64,000 nucleotides of DNA from Leishmania mexicana MHOM/GT/2001/U1103. Its lineage: Eukaryota; Euglenozoa; Kinetoplastea; Trypanosomatida; Trypanosomatidae. Location of the stretch: NCBI RefSeq assembly GCF_000234665.1, contig NC_018312.1:1598108-1662107 (forward strand), given 5' to 3'. Shown piece after piece: positions 36,592 to 62,133 of the stretch; the first letter of the stretch is position 1; the number at the start of each line of letters is the position of its first letter. Below the pieces are notes generated by a model. It saw only the letters and a program-made list of their open reading frames with translations. It was not told the DNA's origin and made no database searches. The position numbers and the translations under genes are program-made.

Positions 36592-39500
36592 ATGCTCGTG
36601 TATCTCAGCAAGCGCATCGCCATGCCGAATGGCGTGAAGGTGACGTCCATTGCATGGAGTGAGGGGCAGGGGTGGCTTGCGTGCGGTGGGGAGAAGGGCC
36701 TGCTGAAGGTGCTGAAGGTGGATGGCGGCCCACAGGGCCAGAGGTCTGGGGGTCTCTCGTCGAGCCAGACGCTGGAGGGGCACGACACCACCGTCGACCT
36801 GGTCACGTGGAACCAGCAGTACTGCAAGCTCACAAGCAGCGACGTCAGTGGCCGCATTATTGTGTGGATGCTGCACAAAGGGATGTGGTTCGAGGAGATG
36901 GTGAACAACCGCAACACCAGCCGCGTCGTCGACTTTGCCTGGAGCCCAACCGGCACGAAGATTTGCATTGCGTACGAGGACGGCGCCGTGATTGTCGGCG
37001 GCGTGGAGGGCAACCGCTACTGGGGTCGTGAGCTGCCCTACAAGCTGGCGAAGGTGTGCTGGAGCGCCGACGGCCACTCCATCCTCTTCGGTACCGCGAC
37101 GGGTGACGTCTATGTGCACGACGCGTCCAGCGGCGCACAGCTTAGCCAGGTCGAAGTCCAGTGCAACGATGACAAGGCCTCGTCCACGCTGTCCGGATTG
37201 TCATGGCACCCGGCGTGGGTGGAGCGACCGGAGCCGCTGGCGACGCTTGCGATCTGTTACCGGTCCGGCAAGATGCAGCTGATGACCAGCATCGGCGACG
37301 AGACGCCGCGCCTCATGGACAGCGACTTTCCCGTTCACTTTGTTTCGTGGAATCCTTCCGGCACGGTTCTCGCGGTGGCCGCGCTCACGCCAGCCACCGT
37401 GGAGGACGCGCCCACTGTTGTCACGCAGTTTTTCAGCAACGAGGGCGTTCACCTGCGCACACTGCGGGTGGCTGGTATGCAGTGCGGCGGGATCACGTGG
37501 GAGGGTGGCGGCCTGCGCGTTGCCATTGCCGTGGACTCCTCCGTTTACTTTGCGAATGTCCGGCCCAGCTACAAGTACTGCTACTTCAAGAAGACGGTTG
37601 TCTTCGCCTTCACGGTGGCAGACAAAGTCGAGGAGAGCGTCATGTTTTGGAATGTCAACACAAACGAACGCAGGACGAAGAGCGTGCGCGGCTTGCAGTA
37701 CCTGAACGCGTGCAAGGACGCCTGCGTGCTGGTCAGTCGCCCCGACGCGGCGCAGCAGCAGCGGATGATTCAGCTGGTGAACGCCATTGGCAGTCCGTTG
37801 GAGACGCGCTTCATTGACATGGAGCTGTACACGTACGACATGAATTCATCTGTCGTCGTGTGCGGCGGTGATGAGTCTATCTACATCTGGCAGTTCCGCG
37901 ACCCCGGCACGGCGGTGGACGCGCTCGACCCCGTCTCGATGCAGGCAAGCCGCGCTGAGAGCCAGGAGCGCGTCATCCACATTGGCGACATCGTCCGCAG
38001 CGACACGGCACCGACGATGAAGGTGCGCTCGGCTCTCACGAATGATCTCATCTGCGCCATGTGTGTCAGCGAGACGCACATGTTCGTTGCTCTCGAGTCA
38101 GGGACCCTGCACGTCTATCAGCTCAGCCCGCTGCAGCTCGTCTCCAAGTACATCCTGCCCGCCCGTGCGCAGTCCATGGCAGTGAACTGTAACTCAACGC
38201 AGCTGGCCGTCATCGACCTCGGCTGCATCACGAGCGTGTATTCCGTGGAGCGGGACAAGTTCTCACTCGTGCCATGCAAGGCTGAGGCGATCGACGGCGT
38301 GGAGCTGAAAGACGTGTGGAACTTGCGTTGGGCCGTCGACGACCCGCACCGTTTTGCCGTGATGGAGAAGACGCGCATGCTCGTGTACAACTGCGGCGTT
38401 GCGGAGGAGCCGGTGCAGTCGTGCGCGAACCTGTGCAAGTTCAAGTCACTCAAGATCCGAACTCTGCAGCTGGACGAGCTCCTGCTCGACCCGGAGCGGC
38501 CCCGCAAGGACTACGTTGTCGACTTTGAGGCGCAGCTGCTGCGCGAGATGCGCGCTGTGCTGCGCGACGGCACTGCCAAGGAGGCGTACGAGTTTGCCGA
38601 GTCGCACAACACCAAGAAGCTATGGGAGCTGCTGGCGGAGCACACGCTTTTCCAGCTGGACTTCACGTACGCCGAGGTGGCATTCATCCACTGCAAGGAC
38701 TACCCAGCCATTCAGTTTGTGAAGCGTGTCCGCAGTCTTGACGACCCGAAGAAGCAGCTGGCCGAGGTGAACGCCTACTACCGCCGCTTCGACGAGGCGG
38801 AGCGGCTGTACAAGGACGTGGACCGCAAGGACCTGGCACTGGACCTGCGCTACCGTCTCGGTGACTGGTTCGGCGTCGTGCGGCTTGTGCAGGAGGGCGG
38901 CGGTGACGAGGCGCTGCTGCTGCAGGCGTGGGAGAACATCGGCGATCACTACGCGAGCCGGCAGAAGTGGTCCAAAGCGGCGCAGTACTACACGCAATGC
39001 CGGCACTACCGCAAGCTGGCACATGTCTTCTACATCATCGAGGACTACGAGATGCTCACCCAGCTCATCTCCATGGCGGAGCACGACAAGGAGCTGATGG
39101 TGACCCTGGGCAACATGCTGCTGACCGTTGGGCTCGCGGAAGAGGCGGCGAAGGCCTTCGTTGCGGCCGGTGAGCCGCGCATGGCGGTAAACGGCTGTGT
39201 GCAGGTGAACATGTGGGACCGGGCCATCGCTCTTGCGGAGGAGCACCGACTGGAGGATGTCGGCCAGCTGCTCGAGAAGTACGCCAAGTACCTCATCCAC
39301 CGCGAGCGCCTCACCGAGGCGATCGAGCTGTACCGCAAGGCAGGCAAGCACGATGAAGCGGCGACGCTTCTGGCGCAGCTCGGCAAGCGCGCAGCCCTTA
39401 GCGACCCGCTCAAGGCGAAGAAGTTCTACGTGCTCTCGGCGCTAGAGGTGCAGAGGTACCGCACCACCGCGATCGCCCTCAATCGCGACGGTGCCGAGGT

Positions 39501-40335
39501 CGTCTCGGAGATGCTCAACAAGGACCGAAGCACCGTGTCGGAGCGCACGCTCGACGCGGCCTGGCGCGGTGCGGAGGCGTACCACTTTCTGCTCATGTGC
39601 CAGCAGCAGATTGCGGACAAGAACTTCAAGGCTGCCCTTGTGCTGGCGATGCGCCTCATGGAGTACGACGACTTGGTGGCGCCAGTGGACAGCTACAGCC
39701 TGATCGCCTTGACAGCGTACCTTGTGAAGAACTACGGTCTCTGTAGCAAGGCATTTGCGCGGCTCGAGCAGGCGGAGCGCAACGACGAAGCTGGCGGGGC
39801 GACGGCAGCGGCAACGGCACAGTTGGAGAACTTCTCTCTAGACCTCGATGTGACGCAGCGTACGATGGCGAGCACGTGCGGCGGGTCCACCGGCGGTGGC
39901 ACCAGCATGTTTAGCGGTGGCGGTGGCTCTGCGCTGTCGGGCACCACGACCTCTCTTCAGCTCACAAACCCAGGCAAGGGCGTGACGCGCATGGCGCCCT
40001 TGACGTATCCGACCGTGAGTCTGCGCGACCCGCCGCGCCCCTTTGCCGACCTTGCGAGGCAGATTTTCATGACTCACTCGCCGGTGGATACGTCTGTGGA
40101 CTCAGTGCCATGTCCCACTTGCGGCAGTTTCAACAAGGAGTGGGCGCAGCGCTGCATCAAGTGTCAGCAGCCCTTCAACACGTGCATGGTGAGCGGCTGC
40201 GCCATCGCAAGCGAGGACGGGGCGTGGCAATGCTCCGTGTGCCACCGCAAAGCTCTGGAGGCAGTCGTGGACAAGTACCGCAACTGCCCGCTCTGTCACA
40301 CAGCCAAGAAGGGCCGCGCGCGCCGCGGAATTTGA
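36592..40335 (+). CDS. IFT121: Intraflagellar transport protein IFT121 (WDR35 homologue), IFT-A
   Basis: This 1247-residue protein opens with MLVYLSKRIAMPNGVKV, the conserved start of WDR35. N-terminal WD40 propellers span about residues 1-620 (for example LACGGEKGLLKVLKV, SVVVCGGDESIYIWQF). A TPR-like alpha-solenoid runs from about 660 to 1110 (YAEVAFIHCKDYPAIQFV, WSKAAQYYTQCRHYRKL, LTEAIELYRKAGKHDEAAT). A Gly/Ser/Thr-rich linker is at about 1100-1135, then a C-terminal zinc-binding end with CPTCGSFNKEWAQRCIKC, CSVC and CPLC pairs. IFT-A drives retrograde transport and membrane-protein entry into the flagellum. Length is close to animal WDR35. The start is the first ATG in frame after the last acceptor. 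Confidence 0.93.
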   Translation: MLVYLSKRIAMPNGVKVTSIAWSEGQGWLACGGEKGLLKVLKVDGGPQGQRSGGLSSSQTLEGHDTTVDLVTWNQQYCKLTSSDVSGRIIVWMLHKGMWFEEMVNNRNTSRVVDFAWSPTGTKICIAYEDGAVIVGGVEGNRYWGRELPYKLAKVCWSADGHSILFGTATGDVYVHDASSGAQLSQVEVQCNDDKASSTLSGLSWHPAWVERPEPLATLAICYRSGKMQLMTSIGDETPRLMDSDFPVHFVSWNPSGTVLAVAALTPATVEDAPTVVTQFFSNEGVHLRTLRVAGMQCGGITWEGGGLRVAIAVDSSVYFANVRPSYKYCYFKKTVVFAFTVADKVEESVMFWNVNTNERRTKSVRGLQYLNACKDACVLVSRPDAAQQQRMIQLVNAIGSPLETRFIDMELYTYDMNSSVVVCGGDESIYIWQFRDPGTAVDALDPVSMQASRAESQERVIHIGDIVRSDTAPTMKVRSALTNDLICAMCVSETHMFVALESGTLHVYQLSPLQLVSKYILPARAQSMAVNCNSTQLAVIDLGCITSVYSVERDKFSLVPCKAEAIDGVELKDVWNLRWAVDDPHRFAVMEKTRMLVYNCGVAEEPVQSCANLCKFKSLKIRTLQLDELLLDPERPRKDYVVDFEAQLLREMRAVLRDGTAKEAYEFAESHNTKKLWELLAEHTLFQLDFTYAEVAFIHCKDYPAIQFVKRVRSLDDPKKQLAEVNAYYRRFDEAERLYKDVDRKDLALDLRYRLGDWFGVVRLVQEGGGDEALLLQAWENIGDHYASRQKWSKAAQYYTQCRHYRKLAHVFYIIEDYEMLTQLISMAEHDKELMVTLGNMLLTVGLAEEAAKAFVAAGEPRMAVNGCVQVNMWDRAIALAEEHRLEDVGQLLEKYAKYLIHRERLTEAIELYRKAGKHDEAATLLAQLGKRAALSDPLKAKKFYVLSALEVQRYRTTAIALNRDGAEVVSEMLNKDRSTVSERTLDAAWRGAEAYHFLLMCQQQIADKNFKAALVLAMRLMEYDDLVAPVDSYSLIALTAYLVKNYGLCSKAFARLEQAERNDEAGGATAAATAQLENFSLDLDVTQRTMASTCGGSTGGGTSMFSGGGGSALSGTTTSLQLTNPGKGVTRMAPLTYPTVSLRDPPRPFADLARQIFMTHSPVDTSVDSVPCPTCGSFNKEWAQRCIKCQQPFNTCMVSGCAIASEDGAWQCSVCHRKALEAVVDKYRNCPLCHTAKKGRARRGI

Positions 40336-41367: not shown

Positions 41368-41955
41368 ATGCTCCGCCACACCGCGCGTCGCATGTCGAGC
41401 CTATCGAGTTTCACCGGGATCGAGGTCGACCCTTACACGGCGAAGTCGATGTTCTTGTTTGGGTTCATCGCGTCTGTTGGATTCTTGTCAGTCTACTCCG
41501 TAAAGGAGACGAAGAAGGCGGGGCCGATTGAGTTGCCGGAGGAGCTGGAAGCGCAGCGGCGGCGACACAATGATCCGCGGCGACCGCCGTGGCCGCTGCT
41601 GCACCAGCGCGTCGTGTTGCTCCGAGAGGGCAAAGGCGCGCCGGAGGATATCGCGCTTATGTGGGAGCAGACGAAACATTACTACCCGGCGGACTGGCTG
41701 ATTCCCCTGGAGCTCACGCAGGTGCTCAAGTACTCGAGCGGGAAGTACCTGCAGACGTATGTGGCAGATCCGGACGAGATGCGCAAGGAGGTGCTGATGC
41801 AGCTGCTAAACGTCAAGTACGGCCGTGTCAGTGATCCCAACGGCGGGCGGGTGAACAAGGACGTCGAGGAGATCATCTCTATGGCGGTCGACGACCTGGA
41901 AAACATGGACCTGAACCCGTCCGCGGACGCGGTGCTCATCCCGACCCACACGTGA
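41368..41955 (+). CDS. Conserved small mitochondrial single-pass membrane protein, function unknown
   Basis: This 195-residue protein has a presequence-like N-terminus (MLRHTARRMSSLSSF) and one membrane span at residues about 27-44 (SMFLFGFIASVGFLSVYS). A hydrophilic domain of about 150 residues has a Pro/Arg-rich start (PRRPPWPLLHQRV) and helical acidic segments. I do not recognise a named family. The pattern resembles an accessory subunit of a mitochondrial inner-membrane complex or a respiratory assembly factor, but this is only inferred. It lies between IFT121 and the PARP relic; in T. brucei the equivalent slot is, from memory, just before the PARP gene. Confidence 0.75.
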   Translation: MLRHTARRMSSLSSFTGIEVDPYTAKSMFLFGFIASVGFLSVYSVKETKKAGPIELPEELEAQRRRHNDPRRPPWPLLHQRVVLLREGKGAPEDIALMWEQTKHYYPADWLIPLELTQVLKYSSGKYLQTYVADPDEMRKEVLMQLLNVKYGRVSDPNGGRVNKDVEEIISMAVDDLENMDLNPSADAVLIPTHT

Positions 41956-42438: not shown

Positions 42439-42879
42439 TGACGAGGGCACACCTCAGGGCGACATCACACGGTCCAGTATCCACGCTCTGTGTGTGGGGA
42501 GCCGCCAAGCAGCCCCCCTATATCCCCTGCCAGTGCCGAGCCGCTTCTGATGGTGACAGGGCCAAGCACCTACGGCGTGGTGAGGTGGGAGCGGTTTGCC
42601 GCGACTGATGTCGGCGGCGGGGTCCTGGATGGCGCTGCCTCGGAGCGACCTGCGGCTGTGAGCGCGCCTGTGCCGCCCATATGATGGGGAGGGTGTCCAC
42701 GCGACTCGAGCGTATCCGACCTGGCCCTCACACTGCCTACTGGTGGCGGGGGGCCGAGCCACCCCGAGGGAGGGATGCGCCAGGCGACGGGGCGCGTGGC
42801 CGGCCGGTGGGCGGGGTGGCGTCGGGCTCGTGCTCCCTGGCGGAGAGTGGCCGCGCTGCAGAAAGCGCTCGCACGTACG
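42439..42879 (+). repeat. SIDER-like retroposon, second subfamily, copy A
   Basis: This element of about 441 bp is almost identical to 47694-48134 and to the first 390 bp of the copy at 59831. I noticed only two differences from copy B (near 42458 and near 42855). It shares discontinuous homology with the inverted pair at 4.3 and 7.8 kb. It lies in the spacer downstream of a mitochondrial protein gene and directly upstream of the PARP relic, with the same orientation as the genes. Assignment to the SIDER family is from position, size and family resemblance. Confidence 0.8.
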
Positions 42880-43034
42880 GCTCCCGAGAAGGCGGCAGAT
42901 ACCCTCGAGGGTGCCCCAGAGGAGAGGACACCGTAGAGAGCTGCCTCCAACAAGCCCGCGGCGCCAGTCCCTGCGCCGGCCCCCTACCAACACACCGACC
43001 GTGAGACTCGAAGAGCGTACACGACAAGCTGATC
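42880..43034 (+). other. Possible N-terminal remnant of the PARP relic
   Basis: Immediately after the SIDER-like copy an Ala/Pro/Glu-rich reading (APEKAADTLEGAPEERTP, then NKPAAPVPAPAP after a stop) runs toward the PARP relic. It may be a decayed low-complexity N-terminus, but composition alone is weak evidence. Confidence 0.25.
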
Positions 43035-44518
43035 ATGAAGGTCAAGGGCATCGTTGAGCCCTACCTCGCCAAGGCAAGCAGCTTTCGCGTGCTGGACGAC
43101 AGCGGGGTGGTGTGTCAGTGAACTCTGAAGCAGTCATAAACCGGGCAGAACAGCAAACTCTACGTCATGCAGCTGCTCGAGGAAGAGACAAGCCTGAGGC
43201 TCTAAGCCTTTGCCGAGCGGGGCCGCGTCGGGGTTCCCGGGCAGCAGGGCACGGGTACTTACCTCAACATTGCCCAGGCTAAGAATGTCTTCCAAAACGA
43301 GCTCTACCACCTGACACACAATCAGCTCAACCTGCCCGACTTTGTGAAGGTGCCTTACAGGCACCAGCTCATGGACATTGACCACGGCGCTGACAAGGAC
43401 GAGGCCGACAAGGATGGTGATGCCTTCGCGAAAAGAAGAGGCGAAGACGACGTCAGCAGCGCCGTCCAAGTCGAAGCTGCCGGTCGAGGCTCATGACCTT
43501 GGGGATATGCTGAGCAGTGAGGCAGGCATTTTGAACACACTACGTGAGCTGTCCATCGGGCACAATGCGCATGCCCCTGCGTACAATCACGAAGGGACCG
43601 ATCAGGAACGCGTACAGCTCTCTCAGGATGATGGAGGCGGAGCTGACGAAGAAGATGCCTGGCTTGCAGCAAGCCATGAGTGTATTCTACTCGCTCATCC
43701 CTCATGACTGCGGCTTCCACCGCCCTCCGCTGATCGACAGCATCATAATGCTCAGGGAGAAGGTGAAGGTCCTTAACGCCCTTGCACAGTTGGAAGGGAG
43801 CTCGACGCTGATGAGCCGCGAGGTGGCGCCGGAGGAGAACGTGCTGTACAAGGCGTTCGTGGCGTTCGACTGCCAGCTGACACTGCTGAAGCGGTCGGTG
43901 GCGAGGTTCAAACCTGCCGAGGAGTAAGCCTGCAAGACGGTCGGCTCGACGCGCAAGTGCTACATGCTGCGCGTGGAGTAGGTCTTCAAGGTGAAAATCG
44001 AGAGGGCGAGTCGGAGCGGTACAAGGCAGCGTTCAAATCCATCGGGAACAGCCAGATGCTATGGTGCGTCGGCCGTACGACGAACTTTGTTCGGTATTCT
44101 GTCGCAAGGTGTGCGCATCGTGCCATAGGCGGCTACCAGGTGACGGCGTGCGTTTTCAGCAAAGGCTTGGTACCTCGCCGAGACGTGCACCAACTCCGCC
44201 AGATACTGCTGCAGTTCCCACACCAACAGAGGTGGCGTAACGCTGGTCTTACAGGCGACGCTGCGAAAGCAGGAGGAGTACGTGGACTCGCGCTACGTGG
44301 AGAGTGCGTTGTCTGTCCTCCACTGGACGAAGGGCCTAGGGCTTGCGCACCCCGATCCGAAGAGGTCGACCCAGTTCAGCGGAGTGATGTGGCCCAAGTG
44401 AAAGGTGATGGCGGACACTGCACCGCCGACGCTGCTGTGCCCCGGGCACATTGTGTACGATTTAGCCCAGTGTCGCATGTAAGACCTGATGAAGATGCGC
44501 TTCGGTTGCAAGCGGTAG
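43035..44518 (+). pseudogene. Decayed poly(ADP-ribose) polymerase (PARP) gene
   Basis: Three PARP domains can be read in order but in changing frames. The WGR domain (about 43090-43330) has YVMQLLEEETSLRL and then RGRVGVPGQQGTGTYLN. The helical regulatory domain (about 43500-43860) has MPLRTITKGPI and FYSLIPHDCGFHRPPLID. The ADP-ribosyltransferase domain (about 43960-44518) has LWCVGRTTNF, ILSQGVRIVP, GYQVTACVFSKG and IVYDLAQ. Stops interrupt it at 43119, 43137, 43203, 43494 and 44480, and the domains need at least four frame changes. The catalytic His before the RTTNF motif is read as Cys, and the catalytic Glu three residues before IVYD is read as Gly. It is therefore dead. Trypanosoma species have a functional PARP, from memory at this syntenic place (Tb927.5.3050). 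The upstream border meets a SIDER-like copy. Confidence 0.9.
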
Positions 44519-45892
44519 CGAGTCTCTTCAGCCAACGCGCGCACATGCACACGAGGGCAGACGGACGTTGTTGTCGCTTCGTGCCCGTCTACTCCTGCAC
44601 GAGCGTGTGTGACGGCCTACGCCAGCGATCCTACTCGTTTTCCGCTCTTTGCATCTCTTCACTGCATACCATTCGTTGTTTCTCTCTCTGCGTGTGTGCA
44701 TGCAGGCGTGCGGGTCTGTCTCACCTCGCATGAGGGTCTGTGCTCTCCCCACCCCACCCCATCATCCTCTCCCTCCTCCCTCTCCTGTGACCCTCTTCGC
44801 TCTCTCAACTGCCTTGCTGCTCTGCATGAATAGACGCACACACCCACACACATATGTGCATGGGACTCGCACTCGGGACTGGATGCGATGCAGCCGCAGT
44901 GAAAGGGAGTGGGATGGCGAGAGAGCGCCTGGCGCGTGTGCGTGTGGGCGTGGACGGGCGCACTGGACGTCATTGTCGGGCTCTTGCGTAGGGTTTCTCC
45001 ATGTTGCTCATCCTATTTGTGTTTTGCGTTCGGTGTCGAAGCGTCCGTGGATTGGGTGCGCGCATGTCCGCTAGCTGGGGTCTGTGTAGCCCCCTTTGTT
45101 GGTGCTCTTGTCCGCCTCCATCCACTGTAGAGCCGTCTTTCGCTCGCCGCTGCGGCGAGCAGCAGCAGCAGCAGCAGCACACACACACACGCAGGTGCAC
45201 AAGTATGCAGTCGCAGAAGAATATAACGTAAAACTGTCTACCTTGCACTATCACTACTGCAAAGTGCTTGGTCACTCGTGTTTAGAGGCAGGGGAGGAGG
45301 ACGGGTTCTGCTCTCTGCTCTGTGCTCGCACAGACTCACAGGTCGAGACCACGCAACTCTGTTTGAGAAGCTGCACGGCGTCTCGCTAGGTACACACCGT
45401 ATGTCTCTCTGCCTGCGTGTGCGCACATCCACGGCTCGTGTTCTGGTAGCGCGACATCCCCGCGATGATTATCGGCGTACGTGCTCTCCCTCGCTGCTGC
45501 TGCTCCTGCCTCCCTTTGCCTGCGCAGGTCCGTTTTTTTTTCTGTTACGCGAAGCGCACTCACGGCTTCTCCCCCAAGCACCCCATGCGCCTCTTCCATC
45601 CTCTCCTCTGAGGCTCCCCTCTTCTCCCCCTCACCCTTACACTTCTTCATGCGCGGTCTCATACTTCTGCTCCCGAACTCCGCTTTCTGTGGGTGTCTGC
45701 CCTGCGTCTCCCACGTCCTCTCACGCGCTCGCCGAGAGGTCCACACAAGCACACGCGCACAGACACGCTCACACAACTGCATAGGAGAGGACAGTGGCAT
45801 GCTTGTTGGTGTGTGTGTGTGTGCTGTTCTGTGCTACATAGGCGGGCGTCACTCTCTGCCTCTCTCTTCTCGGTCGATCGATAGAGCCGCAC
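44519..45892 (+). other. Intergenic region after the PARP relic
   Basis: This 1.4-kb gene-free spacer has pyrimidine blocks at about 44741-44815 and 45482-45660, with long CT stretches. A CAG-then-CA microsatellite lies at 45158-45191. AGs before the ATG at 45893 (for example TCGATAG at 45880-45886) are candidate acceptors. Confidence 0.5.
45158..45191. repeat. CAG repeat merging into CA repeat
   Basis: About seven AGC/CAG units run directly into about six CA dinucleotides, in the spacer upstream of 45893. They are directly visible and non-coding. Confidence 0.9.
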
Positions 45893-47690: not shown

Positions 47691-48134
47691 TGGTGACGAG
47701 GGCACACCTCAGCGCGACATCACACGGTCCAGTATCCACGCTCTGTGTGTGGGGAGCCGCCAAGCAGCCCCCCTATATCCCCTGCCAGTGCCGAGCCGCT
47801 TCTGATGGTGACAGGGCCAAGCACCTACGGCGTGGTGAGGTGGGAGCGGTTTGCCGCGACTGATGTCGGCGGCGGGGTCCTGGATGGCGCTGCCTCGGAG
47901 CGACCTGCGGCTGTGAGCGCGCCTGTGCCGCCCATATGATGGGGAGGGTGTCCACGCGACTCGAGCGTATCCGACCTGGCCCTCACACTGCCTACTGGTG
48001 GCGGGGGGCCGAGCCACCCCGAGGGAGGGATGCGCCAGGCGACGGGGCGCGTGGCCGGCCGGTGGGCGGGGTGGCGTCGGGCTCGTGCTCCCTGGCGGAG
48101 AGTGGCCGCACTGCAGAAAGCGCTCGCACGTACG
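47691..48134 (+). repeat. SIDER-like retroposon, second subfamily, copy B
   Basis: This copy of about 444 bp is in direct orientation, nearly identical to the copy at 42439-42879 and, over 392 bp, to 59831-60222. Its start TGGTGACGAGGGCACACC is shared with the copy at 59831. It lies in the spacer before the RNF10-like gene and therefore probably in the 3' UTR of the gene ending at 47065. Confidence 0.82.
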
Positions 48135-48652
48135 CCTCTTCCGCTGCGCTCCCTGGCGTACTCTCTGTGCCCCATTTTCCTCGACCCTTTCCCATCTCTC
48201 ACGGACTCTCTCCCACGGCATGCACACGAACACGCCCACAGGCATACACGGGCTTACGCAGCTGCTCGCTTGTTTGGTTGGCCCGCATGCCGCTTCTCGT
48301 GCACTCCTCCCCCTTTTAGCCCATCTCTCTCACTCGCTGTGGACGTCTGCTCACGTGCTCTCTCTCCCCTCTGCCGTGTGCATGTGTGTGTGTGTGTGCC
48401 CGCGTCTGCGTCCCTACACGCGTACGTCCGTCCACACGTGCACCGCCGCCTCCACAGGCGCACTCCTGTAGCGGCGTGCTCAGCTTGAGTGCTAGCGAAG
48501 ATTCTTTTTACTCTTTAGTCGTTGCCTCACACACACTCGCGCAGACGGTGCGTGTGTGTGGCCGCGCCGTTGGTGTGGGCGTGCATCGAGCAACGGGTAC
48601 ACGTAGACGGCGAGGGTTCAGTTGTTTGGCTAGACAACGTGCAGTGGCACCA
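48135..48652 (+). promoter_or_regulatory. Spacer with acceptor signals upstream of RNF10
   Basis: This half-kilobase segment has pyrimidine stretches at about 48170-48215, 48302-48340 and 48358-48375. AGs follow (for example CCACAG near 48457) before the ATG at 48653. No gene was found. Confidence 0.45.
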
Positions 48653-50374
48653 ATGCCGCGGCCGAAGAAGGGCAGCAGGCGAGGGACGGTCGTGAGGAAT
48701 ATCTGGGACATCGCCGACTTGCAGGCGACGGGCCTGGGAAGCAGCAGCAACGGCGGGACTCGTGAGCGTCTGTCCACCGCTACCACCGCGGCGACCTATC
48801 GCCGCCCACGGCCGGTGCGGCATGTCGACCCCGCCGTGCTGAAGCGCGCCTTCATGCTGCAGAACTTCCAGTTCATCCTTCGCGCCGAGCTGCTGGCGGT
48901 CACGTCCACGCAGGGGCTGCCGCAGGGCCAGCGCCGGCTGATGGAGTGCATCCAGCTCAGCGACAGCCTCGTGCCGTGGGAGGTGGTGCACTCGGTCGTC
49001 ATGCGGGCCACTCCTGAGGAGTTCCAGTGCCCCATCTGCATGGAGATGCCGACAGCACCGCGCATCACGGAGTGCGGCCACGTCTACTGCCTCCCGTGCA
49101 TCCTACAGTACATGAGCCGCCAGAAGGCGGCCGGCGCGCAGCGCAAGTGCCCGATGTGCCACGACCTTCTCACGCCCTACACGCTGCGCCCCTGCGTGCT
49201 GCAGCCGGTGCAGCCGCGGAAGGTCGGCGTGCAGGCCCGCTTTGACCTCTTCAAGCGGCACCGCGACTCGTGCGTGCTGCGCCGCACCGACGACCCCTTT
49301 CTGGCGGCACCGCCGCCGCCGTCCTCGGCGAAGGCCGTGGCGATCCAGCTCCCAGCCTACATGGAGCCGATGTCGTGCCAGAGTCGGTACGTGATGACCA
49401 CCCCGCAGTACGAGGCGAGGCAGCGCTGCGCTGACTGCGCCGGTATTTCGGAGCAGATGCGCGAGCTGGCGCAGCTGACGCAGCCGCTGAGCGAGTCCGA
49501 CGCGGAGGTGGAGCGATTCTTGCTAGAGGCGCTGAACGAGGTGACCAAGGAACCGAAGGGGCTGCCGCCGTCGATGCTGCGCAACTCGCCGCCCATGGCC
49601 CCGCGCCCCGTCACGACTCCGGAGGGCGAGGGCGACTACCTCGAGCTGTACGCCGACGGAGAAGGGCAGGCGTACTACCTGCACATGTTGACCGTGAAGA
49701 TGCTGAAGCACGATGCGAAGCTGCGCAACGCCGCACTGCCCGACACGGTCACCGGCGTGATTGAGGAGGTTGTCACGATGGAGCAGACGGAGGAGACGCG
49801 CCGCATCTACAAGGTCTTCTCGCACGTCCCGCTGCACGGCATGATCAAGCTGTGCGTCGTCAACGTGGATCATCTCGTCCTGCCGGAGACCCGCACCGCT
49901 TTTGCCGCCGCACTGCAGAGGATGGCGAGCGACAGGGCGCAGCGCCGACACCGCGACGACCGCGCCGCCAGCGAGGATGCGTCGTGGAAGCAGTACTTGA
50001 TGAGGTACAGCAACCGCAGTGGTGACTACTTGGGCCTCTCGCCGGACACGGCGCCGTCGGACTTCTCCATCGACACGGAGAGCCTGCCGTACCTGAAGCT
50101 CCCCTCGACGGGTTCCGCGGGCAGCGACCACGGGCTGCCGCCCAACACGCTTGACACGCGCCAGCGTGCCACCAAGCGACAGGACATGCAGTCGCTGCTC
50201 GTCGACTCGGTCGCGGAGCCTCCGTCACGCGGCGACGCAGCAACAGCGACGACCTCCAGTGCCATGGCGGCCGGCTGCTGGGCTCAGGGGAGTGCGGCCA
50301 AGCTCTTCGCCAAGGCGGAGAGGAAGGAGGCGACGACATCGACGTGGGGCGGACACGTCTTCAACCCCAAGTAG
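48653..50374 (+). CDS. RING finger protein, RNF10/Mag2 family E3 ubiquitin ligase
   Basis: This 573-residue protein has a basic N-terminus (MPRPKKGSRRG). A C3HC4 RING lies at about residues 126-170 (CPICMEMPTAPRITECGHVYC, CILQYM, CPMCHD). A downstream region matches the RNF10/Mag2 layout, with the ELYADGEGQAYYLHMLTVKM segment near 330 and the YKVFSHVPLHGMIKLC segment near 385. The C-terminal third is disordered. RNF10 (yeast Mag2) ubiquitinates 40S ribosomal proteins uS3/uS5 in ribosome quality control. The same job in this parasite is inferred from family membership. The start is the first ATG after candidate acceptors. Confidence 0.88.
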   Translation: MPRPKKGSRRGTVVRNIWDIADLQATGLGSSSNGGTRERLSTATTAATYRRPRPVRHVDPAVLKRAFMLQNFQFILRAELLAVTSTQGLPQGQRRLMECIQLSDSLVPWEVVHSVVMRATPEEFQCPICMEMPTAPRITECGHVYCLPCILQYMSRQKAAGAQRKCPMCHDLLTPYTLRPCVLQPVQPRKVGVQARFDLFKRHRDSCVLRRTDDPFLAAPPPPSSAKAVAIQLPAYMEPMSCQSRYVMTTPQYEARQRCADCAGISEQMRELAQLTQPLSESDAEVERFLLEALNEVTKEPKGLPPSMLRNSPPMAPRPVTTPEGEGDYLELYADGEGQAYYLHMLTVKMLKHDAKLRNAALPDTVTGVIEEVVTMEQTEETRRIYKVFSHVPLHGMIKLCVVNVDHLVLPETRTAFAAALQRMASDRAQRRHRDDRAASEDASWKQYLMRYSNRSGDYLGLSPDTAPSDFSIDTESLPYLKLPSTGSAGSDHGLPPNTLDTRQRATKRQDMQSLLVDSVAEPPSRGDAATATTSSAMAAGCWAQGSAAKLFAKAERKEATTSTWGGHVFNPK

Positions 50375-58049: not shown

Positions 58050-58910
58050 ATGACGAAGCTGACTGTTGTGTGCCGCGCCGTGTCGAGTGCGCTAGAAAAG
58101 CAGACGTGCGAGCTGACGTGCATCGAGCGCCAGACGATCTCGCTCGAGGCCGTGCGGAAGCAGCACAAGGCGTACGTGTAGGTGTTCAAGGAGATGATCG
58201 AGGACGGCTATGACATCGAGCTTATCGAGCTGCCGGCGCTGAACGAGCTGCCCGACTCGATGTTTGTGGAGGACGTGTCGATGATATACAACACGTGCGC
58301 TGTGATCACGCGCCCCGGTGCGCCGTCGCGCCGCCCGGAGGTGGACCCGATTTTGGACACGGTGACGGCTCTGCGCCAGGAGCACTACCGCATCTGTGAG
58401 CCGGGCACCGTTGACGGCGGCGACGTGATGCACGTTGCGAACTCGAAGTACGTGTTTGTGGGCAAGTCGACGCGCTCGAACGACTCAGGGTACGAGCAGC
58501 TGAGGGACTACCTTGGCAAGCACGGGCTGGAGTGCGTGCAGTGCGTTGTGAAGAATTGCCTGCACCTGAAGTGTGCGGTGACTTTTCTGTCGGAGAACAC
58601 GCTGCTGGTGAGCCCCAAGTGGGTCGACCCGGGGATCTTCACCTCGCGCGGGTTCAAAGTGGTGGAGGTCGATTCTAATGAGCCGGCCAGCGCGAACGTG
58701 CTGAGCTTCTCCGCGGAGAAGAATGGCAAACCGTTGCGCACGATAGTAACGGCTGCGGAGTTCCCCGGGACTGCGTCGCGCGTCGAGGCGTTCGCGGAAG
58801 AGGAGACGGCGCAGGGCCGCCCGACGCGCCAGGTGGTGCTGAAGGCGGACGAGATCGCGAAGGCGGAGGGCTCGTTGACGTGCTGCTCGCTTCTGAGCTA
58901 CAGCGCGTAG
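58050..58910 (+). pseudogene. Dimethylarginine dimethylaminohydrolase (DDAH)-like gene with one in-frame TAG
   Basis: Read through, this is a 286-codon gene of normal DDAH length. A TAG at 58179-58181 replaces codon 44, and the same frame resumes at once. Family motifs are intact. LPDSMFVEDVSMIY (67-80) contains the acidic active-site residues, and ITRPGAPSRRPEVD (86-99) follows. TVDGGDVMH (120-128), the catalytic-His motif HLKCAVTFL with His172, and the C-terminal LTCCSLLSY with the nucleophile Cys278/279 complete the set. DDAH hydrolyses asymmetric methylarginines to citrulline. A protein from Met49 would lack the first strand and helix of the propeller fold. Acceptor signals are in place. 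The stop may be a recent knock-out, a sequencing error, or (less likely) a readthrough site. It resembles arginine deiminase too, but the short length and TCCS end favour DDAH. Confidence 0.85.
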
Positions 58911-59830: not shown

Positions 59831-60222
59831 TGGTGACGAGGGCACACCTCAGCGCGACATCACACGGTCCAGTATCCACGCTCTGTGTGTGGGGAGCCGC
59901 CAAGCAGCCCCCCTATATCCCCTGCCAGTGCCGAGCCGCTTCTGGTGGTGACAGGGCCAAGCACCTACGGCGTGGTGAGGTGGGAGCGGTTTGCCGCGAC
60001 TGATGTCGGCGGCGGGGTCCTGGATGGCGCTGCCTCGGAGCGACCTGCGGCTGTGAGCGCGCCTGTGCCGCCCATATGATGGGGAGGGTGTCCACGCGAC
60101 TCGAGCGTATCCGACCTGGCCCTCACACTGCCTACTGGTGGCGGGGGGCCGAGCCACCCCGAGGGAGGGATGCGCCAGGCGACGGGGCGCGTGGCCGGCC
60201 GGTGGGCGGGGTGGCGTCGGGC
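59831..60222 (+). repeat. SIDER-like retroposon, second subfamily, copy C (shorter)
   Basis: This 392-bp direct copy is nearly identical to 47691-48082 (one difference noticed, G for A near 59946). It stops matching after GTGGCGTCGGGC, about 50 bp before the end of copies A and B, so its 3' part is missing or replaced. It lies in the long spacer between the broken dimethylargininase-like gene and the kinase gene. Confidence 0.8.
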
Positions 60223-62133
60223 GCGTGTGCTTGTGGGTCGGGGTACCAACTTCTGCGGCTGAAGTCTTTATTTCAATTTGTGGTGAAAGTGATACGGATT
60301 TACTCCCTGCCCTCTCCTCTGTTATCATAAGAGCGAGTGAGTGCAGCACAGTGGGAAAGCGAAACAAGAGAGCGAGGGCCGCAGCGACAGCAGCGACCGT
60401 GACGCAGGGCGAAGGCTACAGAGCTGTGCCAGCGCAAGGGGAGGGGGTGGTGTGGGGAGGGCGCATACAACGTTCTCCCCGCTCTTCTTCTGCTTCCTTT
60501 CTGCGCGCATTTTCCTCACAGGCACACCAAGTGCGGAGCTCGCGGATGGAAGGCCGATTGCAGTGCGCGTGCACCACCCTCGTTTACCTTCCCACGCAAG
60601 CACGCACACACACAGAACACAGGCGCAGACGCATGGGGGGGGCGCACGTAGCGCTGGTGTTTCACCCACTGACCCATTACTCACCCGGGGAAGGTGTGAA
60701 AGCTGCCGTCCTCTGCATCCTCTCTCTTGCGTGTTTCTTTTTTTTTCGATGCGCAAAGCTCATCTCTTGGGCGTCACTTTGTCTCTCCCTCTGCCCCCCT
60801 CCCTTGCATCTCGCAAACCCCTGCGCACATTCGCCACGCGCAGAGTTTCGACCCGTCTTCTGTCTCCCCCATTACGCACTGACACACGCACCCTCACACA
60901 CCTACGCTTGCTCCTCTTGGACACTTCGCTTTTTCCTCTGATACGGCTGGCCATTTGTGCTACTGCCTTTGTTTTTCTCTGTAGTGAAGAGGCAGCCGGC
61001 GCGTGTGTGTGTGTGTCTGCCTGCGGGTGTCGCCACGTGCAGCGTCTACACGCGTGTGAGATGCAGCCCCCCCTCCTCGCCTCTTGCGCAGTACCACCAC
61101 ATCGCCGCATATTTCTCTTTGTGCCGGTGCGAGACTCACCCTCGCGTGCGCCTACGCATTTGCAACCACCCACGCACACGCAAACAGGCGCATAGGTCAG
61201 TTGTGTGGTGCATCCTCCCTCCTCGGCTGTGCCTCCTCCACCCCATTGATCGGGGCCTCTACTTACGGAGCGAGACATAACGGCGAGGGTCGCTTAACGT
61301 GTGCTTTGTGTCTTCTCCCCCTCTCTGCGTGCATGTGTCTCTGAGTGTGTGCCCACACCACGCCCTCCCTTCCATCTCCCTCCTCCCCCTTCCCGCCATC
61401 CGTCCATATTTCTCCATCTCCTTTATTGCGTGTTGCGCATTGTGTGTGTTGCTTCTCCCTTTTCCGTTTTCGCTCTGTTCCCCCACCGCCATACTTATCT
61501 GCTCTTGTTCCTCGTCTCCTTCCCTCGCTGCTCTCGCCCCCCTCCCATTTTGTGTCTCACACTTCTTCGCTTGGGCCGCATATACATGTACACGTAGACA
61601 TATCTATCTGTATCTATATACGTACACACACACACACACACACCCCTCTCTATACATATACATGCATATACATGCGTGCACCTGTATGTGTAACTTCTTT
61701 TCCTTTTCGCTGTTCGCATGTGCTTTGCGCGTGTGTGTGGTCTTCGCTGTCCCTCCCCCCCTCTCCGCGTTTCTCTGTTCGTTTAGGCTCGATGCGTTTG
61801 CATTTGACGCCTCTGCTGATCTCTCTTTACTTTCCGCATTATCCTCTCTCTCTCGCCCTCACGCCGCAACTGCGTTGCGCGGGTGTGTCTATCTGCACGT
61901 TTGCCAGGCCCCTCCCCCACCCACACACGGACGCACCGAGACGCCGACGCCGAGGCAGCGGGGGAGCGAAAGGTGGAGCGCCTCCGCCGCGTGCCCACCC
62001 CTTAAAGGCTTGACTGCAAAGGAAGGAGAGCACACCGGCACACGCACACAAGTACACATCAGCGCCGCTCTGTTTCCGCCAATTTTGTCCCTTTTCGTTT
62101 CTGTCGGTCATCAGCGTCTCCCTTTTGGTCGGC
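60223..62133 (+). other. Long intergenic region upstream of the kinase gene
   Basis: This 1.9-kb gene-free stretch has many pyrimidine blocks (60470-60515, 60721-60750, 61361-61425, 61441-61560, 61755-61860) and CA-rich DNA, including a microsatellite at 61624-61643. The last pyrimidine-rich stretch (about 62072-62112) ends in CATCAG (AG 62113-62114), 19 bases before the kinase ATG, and is the likely acceptor. Confidence 0.5.
61624..61643. repeat. CA microsatellite
   Basis: About ten CA units lie in the spacer upstream of the kinase gene. They are directly visible. Confidence 0.9.

Follow-up and report, generated by a model that had tools for sequence, protein, structure and literature searches.

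Many eukaryotes use PARP to mark breaks in their DNA. The closest described systems are those of the trypanosomatids: Trypanosoma brucei has one PARP, the writer of poly(ADP-ribose), and one PARG, its eraser (PMC4806436), and searches of Leishmania major found no PARG, consistent with the missing PARP gene (PMC3680488). In this study, a window of 64,000 nucleotides (the whole stretch of DNA analysed) from contig NC_018312.1 of Leishmania mexicana MHOM/GT/2001/U1103 was investigated, in which an initial annotation, made from the letters alone, had noticed the broken remains of a PARP gene. The comparisons reported below indicate, with a probability of about 0.94, that this relic is a unitary pseudogene of a vertically inherited PARP1/2-type gene that decayed in place. 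Prior knowledge, as far as these sources extend, consists of the absence of PARP and PARG from L. major, and relics at the ancestral sites appear to be new. No description of a PARP or PARG relic in Leishmania was encountered in the literature searched, most of it covered in part, and the word pseudogene was not found in the available portion of a review from 2023 on ADP-ribosylation in trypanosomatids (PMC10223955).

Domains and lesions of the PARP relic

Three-frame translations of positions 43000–44560, with stops written as X, were scanned with hmmscan. Two domains exceeded their Pfam cut-offs, PARP_reg with 56.3 bits (E 4.6e-15) and PARP with 52.9 bits (E 4.3e-14), and WGR (20.9 bits, E 4e-4, at 43122–43310) stayed slightly below its cut-off of 22. 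When the relic was compared with the PDB using phmmer, the regulatory and catalytic part matched PARP1 (E 7e-30) and the WGR part matched PARP2 (E 1.1e-8). The domain order WGR, PARP_reg, PARP marks the gene as PARP1/2-type (DNA-dependent ARTD) by descent. The initial annotation had read the WGR, regulatory and ADP-ribosyltransferase domains in this order and had named a lack of similarity to PARP domains in a profile search as a refutation; the order was borne out by both programs, and that search placed PARP_reg and PARP above the Pfam thresholds. The coordinates of all features are collected in Table 1.

In a frame-aware alignment against a profile of seven intact relatives (P0001–P0007), the relic scored +1116, compared with −111 for the reverse complement and −109 to −156 for all five simple shuffles, and 273 of the 497 aligned residues were identical to the PARP of Novymonas. 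The readable gene begins slightly upstream of the earlier estimate of 43035, near 43005. Mild frame-change penalties gave seven stops and seven frame changes and strict ones gave nine and four, the range over the five penalty settings being 7–9 stops and 4–7 frame changes; the earlier counts, five stops and four or more frame changes, were thus slightly low, with the decay itself upheld. The catalytic domain, read in a single frame, contains six in-frame stops, and the open reading frame that a working PARP1/2-type enzyme requires is lacking. The longest open piece in a PARP-matching frame (43535–43924, 130 codons) contains the helical regulatory domain. The replacement of the catalytic His by Cys and of the catalytic Glu by Gly, already noticed in the initial annotation, holds against all eight intact relatives, and the catalytic Tyr is retained, so that the His-Tyr-Glu set of a working enzyme is incomplete; the catalytic identity of these three positions is our assumption from PARP1.

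Table 1. Positions (in window coordinates) of the PARP relic, its parts and its neighbours
Feature	Position	Strand	Basis and remarks
Putative PARP unitary pseudogene	43005..44517	+	Frame-aware alignment; codons aligned 43011–44512
WGR region of the relic	43026..43406	+	PDB PARP2, Pfam WGR; stops at 43119, 43137 and 43203
Helical regulatory domain of the relic	43532..43852	+	PARP_reg (PF02877), 59.8 bits; matched nowhere else in the genome
ADP-ribosyltransferase catalytic domain of the relic	43922..44503	+	PF00644, 54.1 bits; only match in the genome
Presumed catalytic His position, reads Cys	44065..44067	+	His in 8/8 intact relatives
Presumed catalytic Glu position, reads Gly	44444..44446	+	Glu in 8/8 intact relatives
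Dispersed SIDER-like repeat, 5' of the relic	42439..42883		Its end lies 121 bases upstream of where PARP codons first become readable
Intact IFT121/WDR35 gene, upstream anchor	36592..40335	+	Best Pfam match (WDR35/IFT121 domains) 422.8 bits
Intact MIX gene (195 aa), upstream neighbour	41368..41955	+	PDB 3ha4 (MIX1), E 4.5e-99

Ancestry, constraint and genomic setting

A protein search with the relic returned 61 homologues, many of them without a name; the best named ones were from Novymonas esmeraldas and Leptomonas seymouri, with 52% and 48% identity, respectively, and Leishmania was not among the named hits. The Novymonas (P0001) and L. seymouri (P0005) proteins carry all three domains in open frames of 566 and 611 amino acids, respectively. 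A 15-row tree groups the relic with Novymonas and P0004 (support 98/97, internal order open), and these three nest in a clade with Leptomonas (97/97); the branch of the relic has a length of 1.0, compared with 0.17 and 0.23 for Novymonas and P0004. From this position it follows that the PARP gene was inherited vertically.

The column counts start from 498 mapped Novymonas residues; four columns were removed because one of the eight relatives has a gap there, and one invariant column because the relic does. The partial P0013 is not among the eight intact relatives. The relic keeps 141 of the 217 columns that are invariant in these relatives (65%), three of the 76 differing columns being stops, and 56 of the 91 columns that are invariant also in more distant eukaryotes (62%). 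At the 276 variable columns, it shares its residue with one or more relatives 181 times (66%). Under neutral decay, conserved and variable sites are expected to be lost to the same degree, as observed here; when each intact sequence was omitted in turn, it kept 85–99.5% of the columns invariant among the rest. The comparison thus supports the view that constraint on the relic is probably gone at conserved sites. The GC content at the three codon positions (0.549, 0.408 and 0.792) is still coding-like, and decay has therefore not erased the composition. The kept fractions translate into roughly 0.19–0.21 neutral changes per site by a crude, uncalibrated formula from which no date was derived. 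P0062, a protein of 90 amino acids from another assembly, is identical to the relic at 86 of 90 residues, and its C-terminus coincides with the stop at 43925 in the window; the relic therefore occurs in one or more further isolates or species.

The gene order at this locus is IFT121, MIX and then the PARP relic. In T. brucei, IFT121 is Tb927.5.3030 (PMC8141408), MIX is Tb927.5.3040 (PMC4445814, PMC3957582) and PARP is Tb927.5.3050 (PMC4806436, PMC12547018), their neighbourhood being deduced from the consecutive gene numbers of the naming scheme. The shared order supports the placement of the relic in what is probably the ancestral PARP slot, with synteny shown for the upstream side, and on that side the syntenic PARP locus that the initial annotation had considered probable was confirmed.

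Searches of the 32.0-Mb assembly (545 contigs) gave one match each for PF00644 and PF02877, both at the relic, and no WGR match at E ≤ 0.001 anywhere; all four matches of the Novymonas PARP at E ≤ 0.1 fall within the relic locus. This uniqueness is bounded by the completeness of the assembly and the sensitivity of Pfam. A second PARP gene in the genome was considered and rejected, no PARP, PARP_reg or Novymonas-PARP match being found outside the relic locus.

Other accounts of the locus were weighed against decay in place. The remnant might have taken on a new role, acting either as RNA or through a short protein encoded by the 130-codon stretch; this would fit the open frame at 43535–43924 and the existence of P0062, which was called as a protein from the same stretch elsewhere with four residues different. 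However, the invariant columns are retained no better than the variable ones, and P0062 starts at a later Met than the window frame offers, which hints at an upstream break in that assembly as well, so a new role appears very unlikely. A smaller chance still is given to the decay of a spare or retro-inserted copy with a functional PARP elsewhere in the genome. A fragmented assembly may indeed be incomplete, but it yielded no further match to PARP, PARP_reg, WGR (E ≤ 0.001) or Novymonas PARP, the locus is the ancestral syntenic one, and L. major is reportedly without PARP (PMC3680488). The least probable account is an intact PARP gene that looks broken owing to errors of sequencing or assembly. 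False indels are, as is generally known, possible in a draft assembly, but such errors would have to explain the 76 altered invariant columns, the catalytic His and Glu among them, next to intact IFT121 and MIX genes upstream, and the end of P0062, from another assembly, before the same stop.

Several points count against a unitary pseudogene decayed in place. The catalytic part is mostly in one reading frame and the 130-codon stretch is open, such that the decay is not extreme; the comparison covered the DNA of this one species, with its relatives represented by proteins; and the downstream genes yield no synteny, all three that were tried being without a PDB or Pfam match. A second, uncharacterized PARP-like gene is also mentioned for T. 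brucei (PMC5542689), and a Leishmania counterpart of it, if too divergent for Pfam, would escape detection. Decay in place, as proposed by the initial annotation, is nevertheless supported by the ancestral slot, the sole match in the genome, the intact relatives and the loss of constraint. Ancestrally, the slot following MIX would have held a PARP1/2-type gene, as it does in T. brucei. Once the lineage of this genome had separated from that of Novymonas, the gene would have ceased to be under selection and would then have decayed via point mutations and small indels, without a large deletion within the aligned part.

The repeat on the 5' side of the relic had been described by the initial annotation as a SIDER-like copy. 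Its dispersed nature is confirmed, since positions 42500–43034 match at least 40 genomic places, itself included, with many weaker relatives, and two further copies lie in the window, at 47694–48138 (99.3%) and 59834–60227 (99.2%); the family name SIDER is one that we presume. The three copies, located within 18 kb, resemble each other more than any other scored place (next 83%), and this near-identity suggests a recent arrival, local spread or conversion. A KKGKGVVDP-like motif is preceded by 76–173 residues in seven of the eight intact relatives and by six in P0006, whereas in the relic the motif is separated from the repeat by about 50 codons; the original start codon may therefore well have stood where the repeat now lies. 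Insertion of the repeat may have caused the loss of the gene or may have come after it.

Elsewhere downstream in the window, the frame at 48653–50374 was recognized by Pfam as a RING protein and nothing more specific, and an open frame of 238 amino acids at 58194–58910 (+) weakly resembles arginine deiminase (24.7 bits, against a cut-off of 22.8).

A candidate PARG relic on contig C34

The genome's one match to PARG_cat_C at E ≤ 0.001 lies at C34:1103087-1103359 (−) with 24.5 bits, and its one match to PARG_cat_N at E ≤ 10 lies at C34:1103610-1103825 (−) with 18.9 bits. The two are 250 bases apart on the same strand, within 1 kb and with the helical domain ahead of the macro-fold catalytic domain, as expected. 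The pieces are in different frames, and each of the three frames between them holds a stop. The PARG signature is GGG-X6-8-QEE, with a catalytic role (PMC3680488); when aligned to solved PARG, the catalytic QEE reads RRD and the GGG reads DCG, so that the signature of a working enzyme is lost. A Tctex light chain, the best of the genome's five matches, is located about 2.2 kb downstream at C34:1100653-1100934 (−), separated from the PARG pieces by an open frame of 228 amino acids without a Pfam match. In T. brucei, PARG (Tb927.9.12810, PMC4806436) likewise neighbours a Tctex dynein light chain, LC2 (Tb927.9.12820, PMC9536576).

On the negative side of the balance, each single score is weak and below its Pfam cut-off, the PDB matches have E values of 0.24 and 0.66 (PARG ranking first in both cases), and when the pieces were used in a protein search, none of 1383 candidates reached E ≤ 0.001. 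Because two domains and synteny coincide, C34:1103087-1103825 (−) is nevertheless very probably a PARG gene decayed at its ancestral place.

Among other functions related to ADP-ribose, no macrodomain hydrolase match was found in the genome at E ≤ 0.001; one weak macrodomain match at E ≤ 10 (20.3 bits, below the cut-off) is located in an open frame of 276 amino acids at C20:1289414-1289605 (−). One partial ADP-ribosylhydrolase match (27.4 bits) is located at C28:997404-997526 (+) in a frame of 465 amino acids, which has been kept open although PARP is apparently gone.

The poly(ADP-ribose) cycle and known systems

Since no other PARP-domain gene was found, the organism should not make poly(ADP-ribose) by this route; both this missing activity and the timing of its loss we infer from sequence. 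The PARG relic would have decayed in the same release from selection, with PARP lost first or together with PARG, because an eraser is useless without a writer, whereas depletion of PARG is harmful (PMC10223955) to a cell in which the polymer is still written. The whole nuclear poly(ADP-ribose) cycle, writer and eraser, has likely been dismantled in the Leishmania lineage since it separated from that of Novymonas, leaving both wrecks in their ancestral slots. If this is true, the order and the date of the two losses become measurable, and a comparison of lesions among Leishmania species would allow dating. The decay of the writer and the likely eraser in place suggests that an entire DNA-damage signalling cycle was lost slowly.

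The relics change the description of these genes from absent to lost by decay and place the loss after the Novymonas split. They also imply that Leishmania, in which breaks are repaired by recombination and microhomology joining (PMC6635534), does so without a poly(ADP-ribose) signal, and effects of PARP inhibitors on infected cells would then have to be sought in the host enzyme. The interest of the system lies in the paired loss of writer and eraser, the date and order of which are now testable.

In comparison with known systems, the PARPs of T. brucei (Tb927.5.3050) and T. cruzi are also of the PARP1/2 type, the former in the same slot after IFT121 and MIX, but they are working enzymes, whereas the Leishmania relic is broken and has lost the catalytic His and Glu. 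The closest named orthologues, from N. esmeraldas and L. seymouri, have open frames with His and Glu present, unlike the relic. In L. major the same two functions are missing and were reported as an absence (PMC3680488), whereas here the probable remains of both are found at the ancestral sites. The relic is alike in kind to unitary pseudogenes, in which a single-copy ancestral gene is inactivated in place and no functional copy is found, and this genome goes beyond a single such pseudogene in that decay has affected the writer of a modification and probably its eraser too.
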